Position numbers and translations under genes: made by a program. A stretch of 64,000 nt of DNA from Sulfuriroseicoccus oceanibius. GTDB taxonomy: Bacteria; Verrucomicrobiota; Verrucomicrobiia; Verrucomicrobiales; SLCJ01. The notes beneath the pieces are model-generated. The model had not been told where the DNA came from. It ran no database searches and worked only from the letters and a program-made list of their open reading frames with translations. The stretch is taken from NCBI RefSeq assembly GCF_010681825.2, contig NZ_CP066776.1, positions 1,364,001 to 1,428,000 of the forward strand, in the 5' to 3' direction. This document shows, in pieces, positions 1,657-9,025 of this stretch (positions are counted from its first letter, which is position 1; every line of letters begins with the position of its first letter).

Positions 1657-1745
1657 CGCTGGGGCGGACGTGGGGAATGCCTTGTCGGTGAACGGTCGAG
1701 CGGGTAGAGTGTCGCGGATGGTTAGAAGATATGCGCGTCCCACAT
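1657..1745. repeat. M element, right-end remnant
   Basis: Matches the right third of the M elements at 3025-3300 and 4081-4361: an 'aatgcct-tg-cg' block, then gtgtcgcggatggttagaa and a decayed terminal repeat (atgcgcgtccca). The left part is missing. The ATG of the following gene lies inside it. Confidence 0.65.
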
Positions 1746-2794
1746 GGCACTTAGGTGTCCTTCTGCTTCTTCTGTTTCCTTTGTGGGTGAATGCTGAGCA
1801 GGGCGACGCTCGGGCAGACTACCGGTATGAAACCGCTGCGGAGAGGAAGGTTCGGAAGGGTAAAATTCGTCTACTAGAAGAAGAGTTCCGGAGGAAGTAT
1901 GGGATGGGGAGCGAGGAATACACTCGTAAGAACTGCGAGAGTTCTTTGGTGCAAAGCGGCGGGCAGCTTTCGGCGTCATTAGCAAATTACATGATTAGGT
2001 ACCTCTCTAATGTCGATGACATGCGAAGCCTGACGCGTGTGGCTGTGCCTGGCCTGAAAGCAATAATTGCAGAAGGAACCGCGAGCCCGAGTCAGATGTT
2101 ATTGGTAAGTTTACACATTGGCGAACACGGGATGCGTGATGCTTTTGAAGAGGGGAGATCTGTAGTGAACGCGTCTCAGGAATGGGTTGGTATGGGGGGT
2201 ATCTATGGTGAGCGTGATGAAAGGCGTGTGGAGAAGTCCGTATTTTATGATATTGCTTTAAATTCCGAGGAAGGAGGGGGGCTTGTGGAAAAGGTGCGAT
2301 TAGATAAGCGTTTGTCTTTCCGCGCAGCAGTAGTTCGTTCAATTCGTTTTTTGCGAAGCGATGAAGTGTTGGGAGCGGTTGTTGATGAATATCTCTCTGA
2401 TGAGAGAGATGTTGTGCCGGCGTTTCCTCATTCCGACGGCAAATATCTTCGTGTGTGTGATATAGCAGCGCATGAACTTGAAATCATGTTTGGTTTGGAG
2501 GGTGCTAAAGGCGGGGGGAGATCTATTAGTAGGACCGCTTCTGAGCGCGAATCCCTTCGCGACCTCTATGAGGAGGCGAGGGCTGGGAATCGAAAGAACA
2601 ATGCCGATGTCGAACAACAGGGAGCAATGAGAGGTGGTCTGGGGACACTGGATTTCGAGGCAGATGCGAATCTTGATGATGATAGCGGACTGCTGGATGG
2701 AGGGGCTAGTGGTGTTCCCATGTGGGTCTGGTGCGCTGCGGCGATTTTGGGCGCGGGCTGTTATATCGTTGTGCGCGTCACAAAGGAGAGGTAG
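1718..2794 (+). CDS. Exported single-pass membrane protein of unknown function
   Basis: 358 residues, family not recognised. It starts with a signal peptide (MVRRYARPTWHLGVLLLLLF, then WVNA) and has a soluble, mainly helical and charged domain. It ends in one hydrophobic segment (GVPMWVWCAAAILGAGCYIV) and a basic tail, so a type I membrane topology facing the periplasm is likely. The start at 1718 is chosen because it gives a complete signal peptide. That ATG comes from the end of an M repeat element, so the present N-terminus may have been supplied by the repeat. Base composition is more AT-rich than in the core genes to the right. The neighbours are other orphan exported genes separated by repeats. 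Confidence 0.6.
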   Translation: MVRRYARPTWHLGVLLLLLFPLWVNAEQGDARADYRYETAAERKVRKGKIRLLEEEFRRKYGMGSEEYTRKNCESSLVQSGGQLSASLANYMIRYLSNVDDMRSLTRVAVPGLKAIIAEGTASPSQMLLVSLHIGEHGMRDAFEEGRSVVNASQEWVGMGGIYGERDERRVEKSVFYDIALNSEEGGGLVEKVRLDKRLSFRAAVVRSIRFLRSDEVLGAVVDEYLSDERDVVPAFPHSDGKYLRVCDIAAHELEIMFGLEGAKGGGRSISRTASERESLRDLYEEARAGNRKNNADVEQQGAMRGGLGTLDFEADANLDDDSGLLDGGASGVPMWVWCAAAILGAGCYIVVRVTKER

Positions 2795-2803
2795 CGAATT
2801 GGG

Positions 2804-3029
2804 TTAAAACCGGGACGGGCCTGAATGGCGCTAACTTAGGGTGCCAGGTCGTGTCGGGAGCGGCCATCGGGGAGGGGGCTGCGCCTTGGCGTTATCGCAC
2901 GCTCGGCCGGGGATTGGTGGGTGTATTTCCCTAGGGTGGCGCTCGCCAGAGGCTCGCTGACCCTAGGCTGTTATGAGACGCGCTTTCAGCGCGGAATTTA
3001 CGACGCTGGGGGCTAATTGAGCGCCGTTC
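2804..3029. repeat. R element, copy R1, preceded by an M-type end
   Basis: An M-like end (taaaaccgggacgggc, 2804-2820) runs into an R element. R is about 200 bp with imperfect terminal inverted repeats (left gaatggcgctaactta, right reading gcgctcaatta on the other strand). Its internal landmarks are gtgtcgggagcggccatcgg and ggctcgctgaccctagg. It also holds a small hairpin, cgcgct-ttc-agcgcg, at 2980-2994. The same family occurs at 7331, 40602, 53637 and 57033, and in decayed form at 45935. Confidence 0.75.
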
Positions 3030-3300
3030 CTGACAGGCATTTTCAGGGGGCTGATGATTGGGGGAGTTGAGGCAGAATGGTGTTGGTGGGGACTGGGCGG
3101 TGACCTGCGGTGTCGCTTAAGCCGTGCGGGCTTTGTTGTGCCCAGAAGGTGTGGGGATTCGGGCAGAACCGCGTGGAATTCGTCCATTTGTGCGAGAATC
3201 CGCGGGGATCGGTGGAGGCGGGCTGAAATGGCTTGCCGATGAGCTGTCGGGTGCGCAATGTGTCGCGGATGGTTAGGAAATGATGCATGTCCCCGTTTTA
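3025..3300. repeat. M element, copy M1
   Basis: About 275 bp, closely similar along its length to 4081-4361. Terminal inverted repeats follow the pattern aaaaccgggacaggcat (left, partly decayed here) and atgcatgtcccggtttt (right). No transposase is encoded, so it fits a MITE-like non-autonomous element. It directly abuts R1 on the left and an exported lipoprotein gene on the right. Confidence 0.75.
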
Positions 3301-3310
3301 TTGGCTCGAA

Positions 3311-4066
3311 ATGATGAGTAGTGTTTTTCGTTTAATGGTGACCCCCATGCTTGTTCTGGCTCTGCTTTCTTCTTCTTGTGGTGGAAGTGGTAATAGCGAG
3401 AAGGTGACGGAGCGTGATTTATATGTCGTAAATGGAGCCTCAGGTTGGACTAGCGAATGGTGGGTGAACGGTGAGCCGGTTTTCGTAGGGTGGGGCCAAT
3501 ACGGGAAGGACATATCCAAGTTCGTTGGAGATGGTGAAAATTTGATCCGGTTAAAGGCCTCTCCTCTTCGAGAGAATGTCGGCTCTGAGCCTGAGTTCAG
3601 ACTAGTTCGCAGTAAAAGTCTGTTTAAGCAGGGTGAGCTCCTACATGCGTTTTCGAGAGAGGGCGACGACTACGTACCATTTTCGATGAATCTATTAAGT
3701 GGTAGGAGTGTCATGTGGCGGGACGGTGAGGTTCTGTCCGATATACCCCAGGCTGAGCTGTCGGCTGTGGCAAACTATGCATTGAGTTGTGTTGCGGGCG
3801 GGGCGGATGAGAGGCGGGATGTCAATCTTGTGGAGTGGGATGCAGGGGCGGAAGGTTTTGGCGAGCTGTTGCTGGTGGATGCTCAAGTGGCTCCGATGGA
3901 TTCTTATTGTCTGAGGGTCGGAAGTAAATTGTGCTTAGTCTGGTCTGATCGTGGCGCTTTGTTGCGTGGAAGTGTTGAAATGGAAGGTGGTGGTAAAATG
4001 AACGTTTTTGTTGAGTTTTTATATATCTACAAGAAAGGTGGCGTTTGGTTCGTTTTGTTTGCGTAG
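3311..4066 (+). CDS. Lipoprotein of unknown function
   Basis: 251 residues, family not recognised. The N-terminus is a lipoprotein signal (MMSSVFRLMVTPMLVLALLS followed by the lipobox SSC), so the mature protein should be anchored by Cys to the inner or outer membrane. The rest is mostly beta-type sequence with no motif that points to a reaction. An upstream ATG at 3287 exists but lies in the M1 terminal repeat and would spoil the signal peptide, so 3311 is preferred. The gene sits between two full M elements (M1 and M2), has an AT-rich codon choice compared with the core genes, and has no visible operon partner. Confidence 0.6.
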   Translation: MMSSVFRLMVTPMLVLALLSSSCGGSGNSEKVTERDLYVVNGASGWTSEWWVNGEPVFVGWGQYGKDISKFVGDGENLIRLKASPLRENVGSEPEFRLVRSKSLFKQGELLHAFSREGDDYVPFSMNLLSGRSVMWRDGEVLSDIPQAELSAVANYALSCVAGGADERRDVNLVEWDAGAEGFGELLLVDAQVAPMDSYCLRVGSKLCLVWSDRGALLRGSVEMEGGGKMNVFVEFLYIYKKGGVWFVLFA

Positions 4067-4080
4067 AAAGTAGAAGTAGT

Positions 4081-4361
4081 TAAAACTGGGACTGGCATTT
4101 TCTGGGGGCTGCTGATCGGGGAAGTTGAGGCAGAGTGGTGGTGTTGGCGGGGACTGGGCGGCGATCTATGCGGGCTCACTTAAGCCGTGCGGAATTTGTT
4201 GTGCCCTGAAGGTGTGGGGATCCGGGCGAAACCGCGTGGAATCGGTCTATTTGAGGGAGAATCTGCGGGAATTGGCGGAGGCGGAGTGAAATGCCTTGCC
4301 GATGAGCAGTCGGGTGTGCAGAGTATCGCGGATGGTTAGAAATTATGCATGTCCCGAATTA
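4081..4361. repeat. M element, copy M2
   Basis: About 280 bp aligned throughout with M1. Shared blocks include ggggactgggcgg, cttaagccgtgcgg, gaaggtgtgggga, accgcgtggaat and tcgcggatggttag. The left end is taaaactgggactggcat and the right end is atgcatgtcccgaatta. The following 120 bp (4362-4484) hold no gene; they are the upstream region of the next lipoprotein gene. Confidence 0.8.
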
Positions 4362-4484
4362 CTTTATATTAACGATCCCTGTCTTTTCTGTTGCGCATCC
4401 GGCAGGGCGTTTGGGTCCAAGTGTTACTGAGAATCCTGGGGGCGGATTTTGTCTTTTTCGGTGTAGTTTTTAACTTGGGCTTCT

Positions 4485-4946
4485 ATGATGAAATTTGCTG
4501 CTGGTCTGTTTTTGTCGTTAATATTGTCTTCATGCGTTGTCTCGCCGATTACTAGAGTTGACGTATACAACAGTGACGGTGCCGCAAAAGACGGATATGA
4601 AATTAAGATATACCCTTTGAGAAGGGGGGATTTGCTTTGCGATGTTGCTTCGACCGACGGCCTTCAGAAGGAGGTGATTTCAGCTCTGATTATAGGTGTT
4701 GATGGGGATGTTCATGAGGTGTCTGTTGTTGATTCCAATGATCCTAGTGGTGATGAGTATGCTGAATATAGAGAGTATATCGACTTGTGGGATCAGTATG
4801 ATTCAAGATGGCGCAGGTACATCTTGAGATCTAGTGCCAGATTTTTACAAGGTGGTCAGGCTTGCCAAATTGTGCTGAAGCTGAGCGATGGCTCTGTACT
4901 TAGGAGGCAAATGACGAAGTACACTCGGTTGGGAACGCCGCTATAG
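4485..4946 (+). CDS. Small lipoprotein of unknown function
   Basis: 153 residues. It begins with a short lipoprotein signal peptide with lipobox LSSC (Cys17), and is therefore predicted to be membrane-anchored. The mature part is acidic and not recognisable; the stretch from about residue 95 is rich in Asp, Tyr and Arg. It lies between M2 and the M-derived 15-bp tandem array, and is a third member of the run of exported orphan genes on the + strand. AT-rich codon use suggests a different recent history from the housekeeping genes to the right. Confidence 0.55.
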   Translation: MMKFAAGLFLSLILSSCVVSPITRVDVYNSDGAAKDGYEIKIYPLRRGDLLCDVASTDGLQKEVISALIIGVDGDVHEVSVVDSNDPSGDEYAEYREYIDLWDQYDSRWRRYILRSSARFLQGGQACQIVLKLSDGSVLRRQMTKYTRLGTPL

Positions 4947-4979
4947 GAAATGACGCCATGCATCAACTAGGGTAAGGGT

Positions 4980-5100
4980 AAAACCGGGACAGATAAAACC
5001 GGGACAGATAAAACCGGGACAGATAAAACCGGGACAGATAAAACCGGGACAGATAAAACCGGGACAGATAAAACCGGGACAGATAAAACCGGGACAGATA
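4980..5100. repeat. Tandem array: eight 15-bp units made of the M terminal repeat
   Basis: Eight head-to-tail, essentially perfect copies of aaaaccgggacagat. The unit is the outer terminal sequence of the M element (aaaaccgggacag). The array occupies the place where the left end and interior of an M element would be; the M right third follows directly at 5101. Confidence 0.95.
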
Positions 5101-5172
5101 TGGCTTGCCGATGAGCTGTCGGGTGTGCAGAGTGTCGCGGATGGTTAGAAATGATGCGTGTCCCGGTTTTGA
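5101..5172. repeat. M element, right-end remnant joined to the tandem array
   Basis: Contains tggcttgccgatgagctgtc, gtgtcgcggatggttagaa and the right terminal repeat atgcgtgtcccggtttt, in the same order as in M1. The roughly 200-bp interior is missing. The rest of the interval up to 5361 shows no gene. Confidence 0.8.
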
Positions 5173-5361
5173 TTACCCTGTGCGAGCGCCAGTGGTTCCA
5201 CCTCCGATGAAAACTCCATGGTGGCATTTCATTCCGTTGCCGCTGCTCCTTCCTGTTGAGTTTATCGAGCACCCGTTGGAGCGAATGCGCAGGTGCAATC
5301 CAGAACAATATTATGGATAGATATATTGTTGCGATGTATCAATAATTGTAAATATTTCGCG

Positions 5362-5790
5362 ATGAGTGATTGTAGGCTGATATTGTCCGACCTCTTGCTA
5401 AGAGGTTTCGTGGCGTTCGGGGGGCTCAAGCTTGAGGACAGTAATTCTTTCCGGGGAGTTCATTTTTCTGGTGCTAGGTCAGACGAGTTAAAACAACTGG
5501 AGTCCTTGGTGTTTGATGCTCTTCAGGCGTCAAAATTTTGTCGGACGTTGCTAGGGAAGGGTTCTTTGAATGTCGTGTGGGTGAGTATTCCTGTTAGGGC
5601 AAAGGTTGATCCTGATTTTGTGTTTTTGTGGAACGGAATTGATAAGGTTGATCCTGATGGTTTATTTTGGGCTGTTGTTGAAGGGTTGGTTTATCAGCGA
5701 TGGATACGGATGGGGGTCAAACATCGTTCAAAGGCAATTTCTCGGGTACGGGCGTATGTTCTTCGAAAGGCAGGGTGGGAATTGAAATGA
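5362..5790 (+). CDS. Small soluble protein of unknown function
   Basis: 142 residues from the ATG at 5362. An in-frame ATG at 5293 would add 23 residues without a clear signal, and neither start has a strong ribosome-binding site. No signal peptide, membrane segment or known motif was seen. The sequence has a helical C-terminal half rich in Arg and Lys (KHRSKAISRVRAYVLRKAG). It is flanked by M-derived sequences on both sides. Existence as a real gene is supported only by length and a coherent AT-rich composition, so confidence is moderate. Confidence 0.4.
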   Translation: MSDCRLILSDLLLRGFVAFGGLKLEDSNSFRGVHFSGARSDELKQLESLVFDALQASKFCRTLLGKGSLNVVWVSIPVRAKVDPDFVFLWNGIDKVDPDGLFWAVVEGLVYQRWIRMGVKHRSKAISRVRAYVLRKAGWELK

Positions 5791-6246
5791 CTGCAGGTGT
5801 CAAGTGAGCCCGAGAACCCGATACGCCGGTTGGCAGAATAAGCCGCGTAAAACAAGGACAGGCATGAATGGACATAAAACCGGGACAGGCATTTTCTGGG
5901 ATCTGAAGGGCGGTTTCGGGCGTTATCGTTTACATGACGACGGCAAGATCCCTAGTGGTTCGCGATGACGAGGACACGTTCTACCATTAACTGCGCTCCG
6001 CTTCGTTCATGCTCAGTGTGGTTTCCTCCTCCGGAAACCAGAGGCAAGGTGCCGCTTGCGCGGCGAGGCATTGCATCAGCCGCTGTGTGCGACGGGCGTA
6101 TCTGTGTGGCGTGGATGCCACGTCGGGACGGGATTTCAGCCACCTGCGGCAGTGGCAGGTTGAAGGCTGGAAGGTGGCGGCAGATACGTTTGCGTTGGTT
6201 GGTTATTGGGTGTTAGGTGGCTGTTGTGAAAGGAATGTGCAGTTGG
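5791..6246. other. Gene-free stretch with M left-end fragments
   Basis: Two partial M-type left ends lie close together (5848-5869 and 5875-5902, the second reading ataaaaccgggacaggcat). Downstream is about 250 bp with short inverted repeats such as ggtttcctcctccggaaacc at 6018-6037 and accacctgcggcagtggcaggt-type symmetry near 6140. Nothing coding is supported here. The end of the stretch is the upstream region of the DUF1573 gene. Confidence 0.5.
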
Positions 6247-6914
6247 ATGATCGGCCGGTTGTTTCAGGCGCTCTTGGTTGTCGTTGTTGTTGCCGGTGAT
6301 GTTTGGGCAGGAGCGTTGACTTTTGAGTCTGCTGTGGTTGAGGTTTCGGTAGAGCCCGACAAGAATGAGGTGAGTGTGTGTTTTTTGCACGAGAACCAGA
6401 CGGGGGGCCGGTAGATGTGGTGGAGTTCCGCACCGGATGCGGGGCGTGTCTCAGTGTAGGGCCGAAGCGGATGGTGGAGTCTGGCGGCAAGGGGCATGTG
6501 GATGCACTGTTCAAGGTAGGGAGCAAGAGCGGAGCGGTTGAGAAATCGGTGACCGTGGTGATGGCGGATGCTTCTGGTGCTCGCTCCGAGCAGGTGTTGA
6601 CCTTGCGTGCGGTGGTTCCCGAGTTGGTGGTGGTTTCGGAGAAGAAGCTGCAGTGGCGGGTCGGGGAGGCGGGCGTCACGCGGTCCGTGGAAGTGACGAT
6701 GGATTGGGAGCGACCGATCCGTGTGATGGCTGCGACATCCACCAGGAAGAACATGGAGGTGAGCGTGGTGGAGGTCGTGGCGGGGCAGCGATACCGCATC
6801 GATGTGACTCCATTGGAGCTGCAGGGGGCTCAGCTAGGGATGATCCGGATCGATACGGATTGCCCGATTGAGAAGTACCGCAAGCATGTGATTTTTGCTC
6901 AGGTCACGCGATGA
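6247..6914 (+). pseudogene. DUF1573 exported protein gene, frameshifted at a G6 tract
   Basis: The first part (6247-6407) encodes a signal peptide (MIGRLFQALLVVVVVAG...) and the first strands of a DUF1573 domain ending in ENQTGG. The next frame continues exactly where the domain should (PVDVVEFRTGCGACLSVG, to 6914), including the sCG.C-type cysteines usual for DUF1573. One extra base in the G6 tract at 6402-6407 would restore a single protein of about 222 residues. As read, the first frame stops at a TAG at 6412-6414. The downstream rhodanese gene overlaps its end by 4 bp (ATGA), which shows the two once formed a translationally coupled pair. A sequencing error, a recent mutation or slippage-based switching are all possible. 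Confidence 0.7.
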
Positions 6915-7321
6915 AGCGATTGATTGTTCAATTGCTGGCGCTGAGTGTGGCGGTGGCGGTCGTTGCGATGCTGGTGCGGATGGTGCATCCGGATGCGGCG
7001 GAGTTGGGGGAGGCGCTGACCAAGGCCGATCTGGGTGAGGGAGAGATTTTGGCCCGCGATGCCCTGGCAATGGATAAACTGCTGTGGGTGGATCTGCGTC
7101 CGCACGCGGAGTATGAGCGCTTTCATGTGGACGGGGCGATCAATGTGTCGGTGCTGGAAGGCGATGATTTGTTGGACGCGTTCTTTGAGCAGCAGATGGA
7201 AGGGGTGGATCTCTATGCGGGTGGAGTGGTTTTGTATTGTGCGTCGACGGAGTGTGGAGAGAGCCACAGGGTGCGCTCGGAGTTGGAGGAGCTGGGGACG
7301 GGAATGACGGTGTACGTGTGA
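6911..7321 (+). CDS. Membrane-anchored rhodanese-like protein, C-terminally short
   Basis: 136 residues. It has an N-terminal membrane anchor (LIVQLLALSVAVAVVAMLV) followed by a rhodanese-like domain: WVDLRPHAEYERFHVDGAINV, then the active-site region VVLYCASTECGESHRV with the candidate catalytic Cys. The usual C-terminal strand and 'GGW..W' helix of rhodaneses are absent; the protein stops at MTVYV, about 10 bp before an R element begins. This suggests the end was lost when the repeat inserted. The overlap (ATGA) with the DUF1573 gene points to a shared transcript. Sulfur transfer or redox activity in the periplasm is possible, but the truncation makes function uncertain. Confidence 0.7.
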   Translation: MKRLIVQLLALSVAVAVVAMLVRMVHPDAAELGEALTKADLGEGEILARDALAMDKLLWVDLRPHAEYERFHVDGAINVSVLEGDDLLDAFFEQQMEGVDLYAGGVVLYCASTECGESHRVRSELEELGTGMTVYV

Positions 7322-7515
7322 GAATATGGACAGGGATGAGTGGCACTAATTTACGGTACCTGTTCGTGTCGGGAGCGGCCATCGGGGAGGGTGCTGCGCC
7401 TTGGCGTTATCGCACGCTCGGCCGGGGATTGGTGGGTGTATTTACCTAGGGTGGCGCTCGCCTGAGGCTCGCTGACCCTAGGCTGTTATGAGACGCGCTT
7501 TCAGCAACTCTGTTT

Positions 7516-8466
7516 CTAATTTTGTTTTATCGGCTCGAAATTGGGGTCGGAAAGAAGGCGGTTTACGAGTCTGACAAGCTTTCGGATCACGGCGGTGATG
7601 GCGACATGATGAGGTTTTCCTTTGGCGATCAGACGGCCATAAAATTCCTTCAAAATCGGGTTGTGGTTCGTGGCGCATAGAGCAGGCATGTAGAGGCTGC
7701 GCCGGAGTAAATGCCTTCCTCCGCGGACGTGCCTCTTGCCGCTATGAGTGCCGGTGTCTTTGTTGAATGGCGCAACTCCAACTAAAGCCGAAGCCTGGTT
7801 GTCGGTGATTGCGCCCAGTTCTGGCATTTCAGACAAGAAGACCGTGGATGCAGCCAGACCAAGTCCTTTGATCGACTCGATTTTGCGCTTCTTCTCACGC
7901 AGCACGGCGTCTTTCGCAATGAGTGTGTCGAGTTGCTTTTGGCAACGAGCAATCGCTCGCTCAAGGCTTTGGATTTGGGTCTTGAGCTCCTTCTTCACAA
8001 AGCTGTCGGTGACCTTTTGAAGGGCCGTTTTCTGAGCTGCAGCTTGGCGGGTGAAACGATCCTTAATCCTGGCGATCGCTGACATCTTCTCCTGCAGAGC
8101 TGTAGGTTTTACGCGGGATGCCGGGGTGATCGACTCTCCGAAGCGAGACAAGACCGTGGCATCCATCGCGTCAGTTTTCGCTGAGATTCCCATGGCCTCG
8201 GCAAATGCTCGTGCTCGCTTTGGATTAACCAGGCTGATGGGAATGTTTAGCTCCAATGCTTGAGCGAGGAGGCACTTTTCATAGCCACCGGTAGGCTCAC
8301 AGATGATGTGGATTTCGTCCTGTTGTTTGGATAGCTTGAGGAGCTCCGATTTTACCTTTGATGGAGTGTTGGGAACGGTCCAGGAGCGCTTTGTTTTGGG
8401 GTGATAAAAGTCGAGTTTATCTTTGCTGACATCGACGCCGATATAGTGTTTGTTCTGAGTGTTCAT
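7516..8466 (-). CDS. IS110-family DEDD recombinase/transposase
   Basis: 316 residues, normal length for the family. The N-terminal RuvC-like DEDD domain shows GVDVSKDKLD (Asp11), CEPTGGYEK (Glu) and SAKTDAMDA (the two Asp). A coiled-coil linker follows at about residues 120-195. The C-terminal Transposase_20 domain (IESIKGLGLAASTVFLSEMP, GVAPFNKDTG, GGRHLLRRSLYMPAL) carries the conserved Ser used as nucleophile in this family. By family knowledge it excises and integrates the element without a free double-strand break, guided by a bridge RNA from the element's own non-coding end. All key residues are intact, so it may be active. Confidence 0.95.
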   Translation of the reverse strand: MNTQNKHYIGVDVSKDKLDFYHPKTKRSWTVPNTPSKVKSELLKLSKQQDEIHIICEPTGGYEKCLLAQALELNIPISLVNPKRARAFAEAMGISAKTDAMDATVLSRFGESITPASRVKPTALQEKMSAIARIKDRFTRQAAAQKTALQKVTDSFVKKELKTQIQSLERAIARCQKQLDTLIAKDAVLREKKRKIESIKGLGLAASTVFLSEMPELGAITDNQASALVGVAPFNKDTGTHSGKRHVRGGRHLLRRSLYMPALCATNHNPILKEFYGRLIAKGKPHHVAITAVIRKLVRLVNRLLSDPNFEPIKQN

Positions 8467-8479
8467 CTGTATTTCAACC

Positions 8480-8690
8480 TTGGATCTACGAGCTCTCGGG
8501 CTCTTGCAACTCTACGAACTGCAGATGGATTTGAGGGAAACAGGCCTCCTTGCTGAAAGACGAGTTCAAGGACTCGAGGAGGAACGGAGTGACTGTTTCA
8601 GCGATCGAGGTGGGGGTGGCCACCCCCACCTTGATCAACCTCCGGTTTCGTATGAAACCGATGGAGCTAGGAATAGCTCAAATTGACCAA
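8480..8690 (-). ncRNA. Candidate bridge RNA of the IS110 element
   Basis: Seen on the minus strand upstream of the transposase. Two 5' hairpins are present (arms 8643-8649/8654-8660 and the long 8603-8636 palindrome). Next comes a loop closed by gaaacag/ctgtttc (8593-8599 with 8537-8543), then a second loop closed by 8521-8526 with 8484-8489. Loop 1 contains CUUUCAGC (8559-8552), complementary to the target strand GCTGAAAG next to the insertion. Loop 2 contains AGAGUUGC (8513-8506), identical to the element's right end plus core. Order (target loop, then donor loop) matches IS621. The left-target and right-donor guides are only weakly matched (TCCG, CCAAG). Exact RNA ends are not determined. 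Confidence 0.6.
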
Positions 8691-8737
8691 CCAAGCGCGG
8701 AATTGACGACGCTGAGGCCTGAGTTAGTGCCATTCGG

Positions 8738-9025
8738 GACAAGCATTTTCAGGTGGGCGGCTTGCGGGGCGGGGGATCGGTGGCGTTGGTTGGTGCTGCG
8801 GGGGGGGCAAGTGGTCGCTGCGCTCCGATGGTTTTGGTAGCCGGGTAAAATCCGGCGGTCCGTGGGGGCTTTGGGGGGCGGGTACAATCCGGCGGTCTGT
8901 ATAGTGCTTTGGGGGGCGGGTGAAATCCGGCGGTCCGTGGGGTGCGCTTGGGTGGCCGGGGAACGAAAGACGCCCGCGCCGCAGAGCGGGGCGGGCGTTA
9001 TGAATTTCTGGTAGCAGGAGGTGGT
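8738..9025. other. Gene-free stretch with three short degenerate repeats and a hairpin
   Basis: Three imperfect tandem copies of a roughly 38-50 bp unit (…aatccggcggtc-gt-g…ctttggggggcggg) lie at 8838-8960. A GC-rich hairpin follows (arms acgcccgc 8970-8977 and gcgggcgt 8991-8998). The hairpin could end transcription from the minus-strand gene at 9221-10459, but it lacks a clear U run on either side. No gene is supported. Confidence 0.45.

Follow-up and report, generated by a model that had tools for sequence, protein, structure and literature searches.

Transposases of the RAYT type are for the most part considered domesticated and immobile, and their role in the host is an open question in the field. 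Known cases of genes flanked by MITEs mostly involve DDE-type elements and a single cargo locus. According to Quentin et al. (2018, PMC6006769), RAYT genes are usually present in one copy and do not transpose as a unit. The same source describes the insertion of IS608-type HUH transposases into the lagging-strand template (PMC6006769), and blaPER-1 provides an example of a passenger gene flanked by MITEs (PMC3934969).

We analyzed a window of 64,000 nucleotides from Sulfuriroseicoccus oceanibius (C1:1364001-1428000, in a genome of 3.50 Mb on a single contig) in which ends and copies of a repeat, M, alternate with four small orphan genes (Table 1). The M family shares with RAYT/TnpA-REP and REPtrons (PMC6006769) the HUH and YxxLNPVRA motifs, a match to REP_Tyr_transpos, inverted flanking ends, intergenic repeats, and a logic based on ssDNA. 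It differs from them in having two intact transposase frames along with many deleted copies with definite ends, which is IS-like, and in its low copy number rather than hundreds of hairpin REPs. With IS200/IS605 elements (IS608 and ISDra2), M has in common a Y1 HUH transposase, the lack of a visible target duplication, and an orientation tied to replication. In contrast to those elements, its transposase falls below the Y1_Tnp cut-off, has a long C-terminal part, and lies between near-perfect inverted ends without a tnpB gene.

Other resemblances concern the layout. As in MITEs and mobile insertion cassettes, short noncoding derivatives of an autonomous element surround passenger genes, and as in composite transposons and mobile insertion cassettes, a gene lies between two copies of one element. 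Non-autonomous elements that flank passenger genes are known; what is unusual here is that the element belongs to the HUH/RAYT group and that a different exported orphan is found at almost every site, across about nine loci that are without exception oriented with replication. Integron cassettes likewise form arrays of one-gene units with AT-rich orphans, a single direction, and repeats as separators. Unlike these cassettes, however, the M units contain no attC, have no integrase nearby, and are dispersed over the chromosome.

Table 1. Features of the window and of related sites elsewhere on C1. Positions without a prefix are those of the window.
Feature	Position	Strand	Remarks
M right end	1676-1742	+	67 bp, 79% identical to parent positions 1281-1347
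Orphan gene 1	1718-2794	+	GC 0.51; signal peptide, C-terminal TM by inspection
M left end	2805-2822	+	10 bp past gene 1 stop
D3 repeat	about 2823-3031 (2813-3050 as uninterrupted D3)	+	dispersed, TIR-like GGCGCTAACTTAG/CTAATTGAGCGCC; inside M left end
Remainder of D3-split M copy, including right end	3032-3300	+	
Orphan gene 2	3287-4066	+	GC 0.49; lipoprotein-like
Complete M, 281 bp	4081-4361	+	14 bp past gene 2 stop; right 177 bp 94% identical to parent
Orphan gene 3	4485-4946	+	GC 0.45; lipoprotein-like
Eight tandem 15-bp M left ends (TAAAACCGGGACAGA)	4979-5098	+	
M right end	5097-5172	+	96% identical to parent; tandem left ends directly before
Orphan gene 4	5293-5790	+	GC 0.44; without export signal
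N left end, 29 bp (second RAYT family)	5785-5813	+	overlaps gene 4 stop codon
Lone M left end	5848-5865	+	
M left end and 5' fragment of transposase gene	5875-6193	+	first ~235 bp of element, ~80 bp inserted
Segment copied between loci	5875-7318	+	left end, tnpA fragment, DUF1573 gene (frameshifted), truncated rhodanese gene
Other N left-end sites	C1:1048324, 1049920, 354918, 59973, 60226, 1833444		
Integron arrays	C1:2974275-3003036; 2268741-2304372; 2725869-2734593		

The M element, its parent, and a second family of ends

M begins with TAAAACCGGGACAGGCAT and ends with ATGCRTGTCCCGGTTTTA. With up to three mismatches, an 18-mer from the left end matched the window 14 times, compared to 0.06 matches expected from shuffles, and a 22-mer from the right end matched four times, compared to 0.00. 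Across the whole genome, the same left-end search gave 27 matches and its reversed control none, while a search with M itself returned 19 matches at nine loci. All of the M ends and copies listed in the initial annotation were thus present in the window, with a near-zero chance expectation for the ends. Their coordinates were right, with the refinements given in Table 1; among these, the first feature is a right end only (1676-1742), and 2805-2822 together with 3032-3300 probably constitute one M copy that was divided by a D3 repeat.

The parent of M is a complete element of 1,353 bp (C1:1834102-1835454) that carries a 355-aa ORF between M-type ends. This ORF contains the motifs ENHFHV (HUH) and YVDLNPVRA (Y motif) and matches the NCBIfam model REP_Tyr_transpos (NF047646; E 9.4e-11) with 41.8 bits, which is below the equivalog cut-off of 80 bits. 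Its score against Pfam Y1_Tnp was 13.3 bits, under the cut-off of 23. A second copy of the element, whose 355-aa frame is also intact and 96% identical, lies at C1:355622-356686. A scan for the transposase over the contigs of other genomes returned distant relatives only. When aligned to the parent, M copies consist of both ends plus variable remnants of the transposase gene, which points to an internally deleted or decayed RAYT-type derivative. M is thus very probably the non-autonomous form, decayed in most copies, of a RAYT-type transposable element of the HUH (Y1) class. Among themselves, the copies are 80-95% alike. The suggestion that M is MITE-like agrees with these data, given that the complete copy in the window is short and noncoding with inverted ends and that a RAYT-type autonomous parent resides in the same genome.

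Single-strand folding of the M ends was no better than that of shuffles, leaving a REP hairpin structure unsupported, and with only 27 end matches genome-wide there is nothing like the flanking hairpins in more than 100 copies, with a GT[AG]G foot, that characterize REPtrons. HUH elements need not produce a target-site duplication, and none was evident at M from reading the end flanks in this genome. Direct repeats around whole units at 710, 751, and 61 kb were considered as a target duplication and rejected: both the repeats of 280 bp at 751 kb and portions of the one at 61 kb match other sequences in the genome and thus provide no evidence for one.

A second RAYT family, N, also contributes ends. 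Its left-end motif, AATGACTGCAGGTGTCAAGTGAG, has one site at the 3' end of gene 4 and six others, every one of them at M loci, and was absent from 400 kb of background and from the integron array. At position 59973 of C1 the motif marks the upstream boundary of a RAYT-like gene of 426 aa (REP_Tyr_transpos, E 1e-17), which identifies it as the left end of another RAYT family. Copies of N elsewhere are reduced to their first 24-90 bp, and lone N left ends of 24-30 bp mark the 3' side of orphan genes at M loci. The RAYT parent, the N left end at the end of gene 4, and the replication-linked orientation described below go beyond the initial annotation.

Single-gene bracketing by M ends is genome-wide

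The four genes in the window are small, AT-rich, and on the plus strand, as the initial annotation had described. Their GC contents (0.51, 0.49, 0.45, and 0.44) contrast with that of the window (0.58), and N-terminal signals are present in genes 1 to 3. The cassette-like arrangement proposed for them takes the form of a right end, one gene, and a left end. A search of the genome for other single genes bracketed by M, which had been recommended as a check, found that the pattern recurs at other loci.

Right ends of M were found at 14 sites distributed over nine chromosomal loci. At 13 of these sites, the right end is followed by a same-strand gene with a GC content of 0.43-0.52, and the majority of them carry export signals and fall into no known family. 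For comparison, we used 317 ORFs in 380 kb sampled across the chromosome (GC 0.58), only 3.2% of which had a GC content of <0.525; the binomial probability of a low-GC gene behind 13 of 14 right ends is 4e-19. About 10 of the 13 genes behind right ends had a hydrophobic N terminus, compared to 70 of the 317 background ORFs. Downstream, the distance from the stop codon to the M left end was 10-32 bp for genes 1, 2, and 3 and the 710-kb gene, and 54-94 bp at 751, 793, and 1834 kb. M ends stand on both sides of the gene in the window (four times) and at 710, 751, 793, and 1834 kb, with mixed M/N bracketing at 61, 354, and 1047 kb. The bracketed stretches nearly always contain exactly one gene, and the units occur singly or in pairs among ordinary genes such as lysS, a pckG-like gene, rpoC, valS, and an ABC-F ATPase gene (named from translations). 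Low-GC genes lacking both M and attC were scarce in a 400-kb sample, and none of 13 sampled copies of the unrelated repeat D3, which served as a control, adjoined a low-GC gene. Single-gene bracketing by M ends is a feature of the whole genome, with about eight loci beyond the window.

Genes 1 to 4 had no meaningful match in Pfam, NCBIfam, PADLOC, or PHROGs. With these searches empty, we rejected defence, phage, or known-family identities for them, and PDB matches of gene 1 to gp41 coiled coils were treated as an artefact. For those of the genes that were searched, no phage or plasmid relatives were found. The orphans at M loci are mutually unrelated with a single exception: the sole homologue found for gene 1 (36-39% identical) is at the 710-kb M locus, where it likewise has a right end on one side and a left end on the other. 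No counterpart of gene 1 was present in 56 further genomes of the order, nor one of gene 4 in 386. The only homologue of gene 2 elsewhere is a 28%-identical lipoprotein gene in a single distant genome, where it lies downstream of gpsA and adjoins a Gmx_para_CXXCG-like gene that, at 22 bits, narrowly missed the cut-off. Relatives without M that share the gene order, which the initial annotation had said would speak against its reading, were not seen.

Another arrangement was observed upstream of the parent element. At C1:1832000-1833384, an Rhs core with a variable tip (TIGR03696) is followed by a small exported gene, an N left end, and, last, the complete RAYT element. The Rhs core and the small exported gene beside M at this 1.83-Mb locus are a possible toxin-immunity pair. 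Based on the Rhs tip that starts the locus and on the Gmx_para_CXXCG-like neighbor of the gene 2 homologue, we guess that toxin-immunity proteins may be among the exported orphans.

DNA beside an M left end has been copied between two M loci. Beginning at the same first base of the left end, the window segment 5875-7318 corresponds to C1:1836270-1837628 (1.45 kb, about 95% identical), and both copies come directly after an M-bracketed orphan gene. The window copy is probably the derived one, because it is there that the DUF1573 gene is frameshifted and the rhodanese gene truncated. The idea that M supports gene gain through recombination is partly supported by this copied segment; however, no identical or near-identical orphan-gene unit was found at two sites among the M loci. 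At 1047 kb, two units have between them an incomplete copy (77%) of the rpoC terminator and right end, and an internal piece of rpoC (149 bp) is repeated with 94% identity (C1:1047090-1047238 and 1049941-1050089). The second piece follows immediately on an N left end, just past the final orphan gene at this locus. Homologous recombination or the transposase could equally have caused the rearrangements at element ends in 5875-7318 and at 1047 kb.

Farther right in the window, an IS110-family transposase gene (7516-8466, minus strand) splits a D3 repeat (7328-8756). A CCGGCGGTCCGTGGGG-type sequence of ~38 bp is found in three tandem copies at 8831-8943, to the right of the array, and similar repeats occur elsewhere in the genome.

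Orientation with replication, here and in a congener

GC skew stays below zero from 2.31 Mb across position 0 up to 0.44 Mb and above zero between 0.61 and 2.14 Mb, with the integron stretch at 2.99 Mb as an exception, so that the sign switches between 0.44 and 0.61 Mb and between 2.14 and 2.31 Mb. M is on the minus strand at 61 and 354 kb and on the plus strand at each of the seven loci between 710 and 2023 kb. Judged by GC skew, it is co-oriented with the replication fork at nine of nine loci, and replication-linked insertion of M into ssDNA is well supported. Given the lagging-strand insertion of IS608-type transposases, the mechanism itself accounts for the shared direction within the window, with no need for a cassette model. 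About 12 of the 13 sampled D3 copies were also oriented with replication, which suggests that D3 is another ssDNA-linked repeat. Since D3 shows the same strand bias with no association to low-GC genes, the gene association of M is a separate fact.

The congener G001 contains several transposase copies that are ~50% identical to that of the M parent (the four compared were 81-91% identical), along with inverted ends related to those of M (AGGACACCCATWAT). Several copies with related ends indicate a multicopy, IS-like element in the genus. In this genome, 18 of 21 right ends agreed with the regional skew (P = 0.0015). Only 11 of the 21 were followed by a same-strand gene, and the excess of low-GC genes was weak (4/20, P = 0.05). 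The orientation bias therefore generalizes to the congener, and the association with low-GC genes does so weakly. One congener orphan, r99, is bracketed by an M-type right end and an N-type transposase gene, so that orphan genes flanked by RAYT ends, the right end in front and the left end at the back, are seen in two species. Separately, on congener contig C6 (L112 900-1600), a RAYT right end is located inside the attC of an integron cassette. Beyond it come a small gene that carries an attC itself and a second, inverted RAYT end, an arrangement that represents RAYT insertion into an integron array.

Origin of the bracketed genes

We propose that the full element, composed of the left end TAAAACCGGGACAGGCAT, the 355-aa transposase, and the right end ATGCRTGTCCCGGTTTTA, would insert from single strands exposed at replication forks, such that each copy would point fork-ward. 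The orphan genes would not have been resident at these sites beforehand. Instead, they may have been carried or captured between element ends, either as single-gene composite units or between the inner ends of two neighboring copies, and recombination between element copies could have spread them further. The window would then represent four right end-gene-left end units in a row. We favor the view that the orphan genes were carried or captured by element ends rather than invaded in place, and give it a probability of about 0.5. A bolder version is doubtful, namely that RAYT ends constitute a gene-cassette system of their own. Here, one gene with a short left end on its 3' side (15-30 bp, M or N) would be inserted behind an M right end by the HUH transposase acting on ssDNA at the fork, and exported orphans would be gathered and shuffled much as in integrons with unrelated enzymes and sites.

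The main rival to carriage or capture is insertion around AT-rich islands, which we regard as possible. The AT-rich orphans would have arrived otherwise, with M (and N) later entering AT-rich, dispensable gaps on both sides, and the layout would reflect insertion preference and survival. Replication-coupled insertion by itself accounts for the common orientation, and the intergenic gaps would be short and operon-like without M. In addition, M copies are 80-95% alike compared to 36-39% for the paralogous pair of gene 1 and the 710-kb gene; the copies thus look younger than the split of these genes, and M may have joined them late, which tells against carriage. However, insertion around residents does not readily explain why right ends adjoin low-GC genes at nearly all sites when the equally strand-biased D3 never does, why low-GC genes without M or attC are so scarce, why one gene, nearly always, fills each bracketed stretch, or why M and N left ends sit just past stop codons. 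That the right end might instead be kept for expression is improbable. Under this explanation, M would supply a putative outward promoter or ribosome-binding site, and selection would retain copies upstream of promoterless orphans. Right ends are indeed immediately upstream of same-strand genes at 13 of 14 sites and may provide the start codons of genes 1 and 2: a possible ATG of gene 1 (1718) is inside the right end at 1676-1742, as is the ATG of gene 2 (3287) in its own right end, with an alternative ATG at 3311. Yet the left ends on the 3' side are left unexplained, and right ends in the congener precede same-strand genes in about half of cases only.

The genome does encode an integron integrase (C1:2974275-2975528; TIGR02249, 327 bits), and 123 attC-like sites were detected genome-wide, few of them solitary and nearly all in three arrays. 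Together with the congener right end that lies within an attC, beside a cassette gene with its own attC, these features would suit an origin of the orphans as cassettes of the chromosomal integron in which M replaced or interrupted attC sites. We consider this origin most improbable. Using a covariance model built from the genome's own attC sites, the genome-wide search found no attC at any M locus, and matches in the 64-kb window were at chance level. The lack of attC indicates that M-bracketed genes are not integron cassettes. Furthermore, M genes had a lower GC content than array genes (0.47 versus 0.51, P = 4e-4), export signals were more common among them than among cassette genes, and no homology was found between the M genes of this genome and its integron array genes.

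Carriage or capture by element ends aside, the chromosome contains an IS-like RAYT family with non-autonomous derivatives that bracket a different exported orphan at almost all sites. If it is true that the genes travel with these ends, the family would offer an integrase-free route to single-gene gain.
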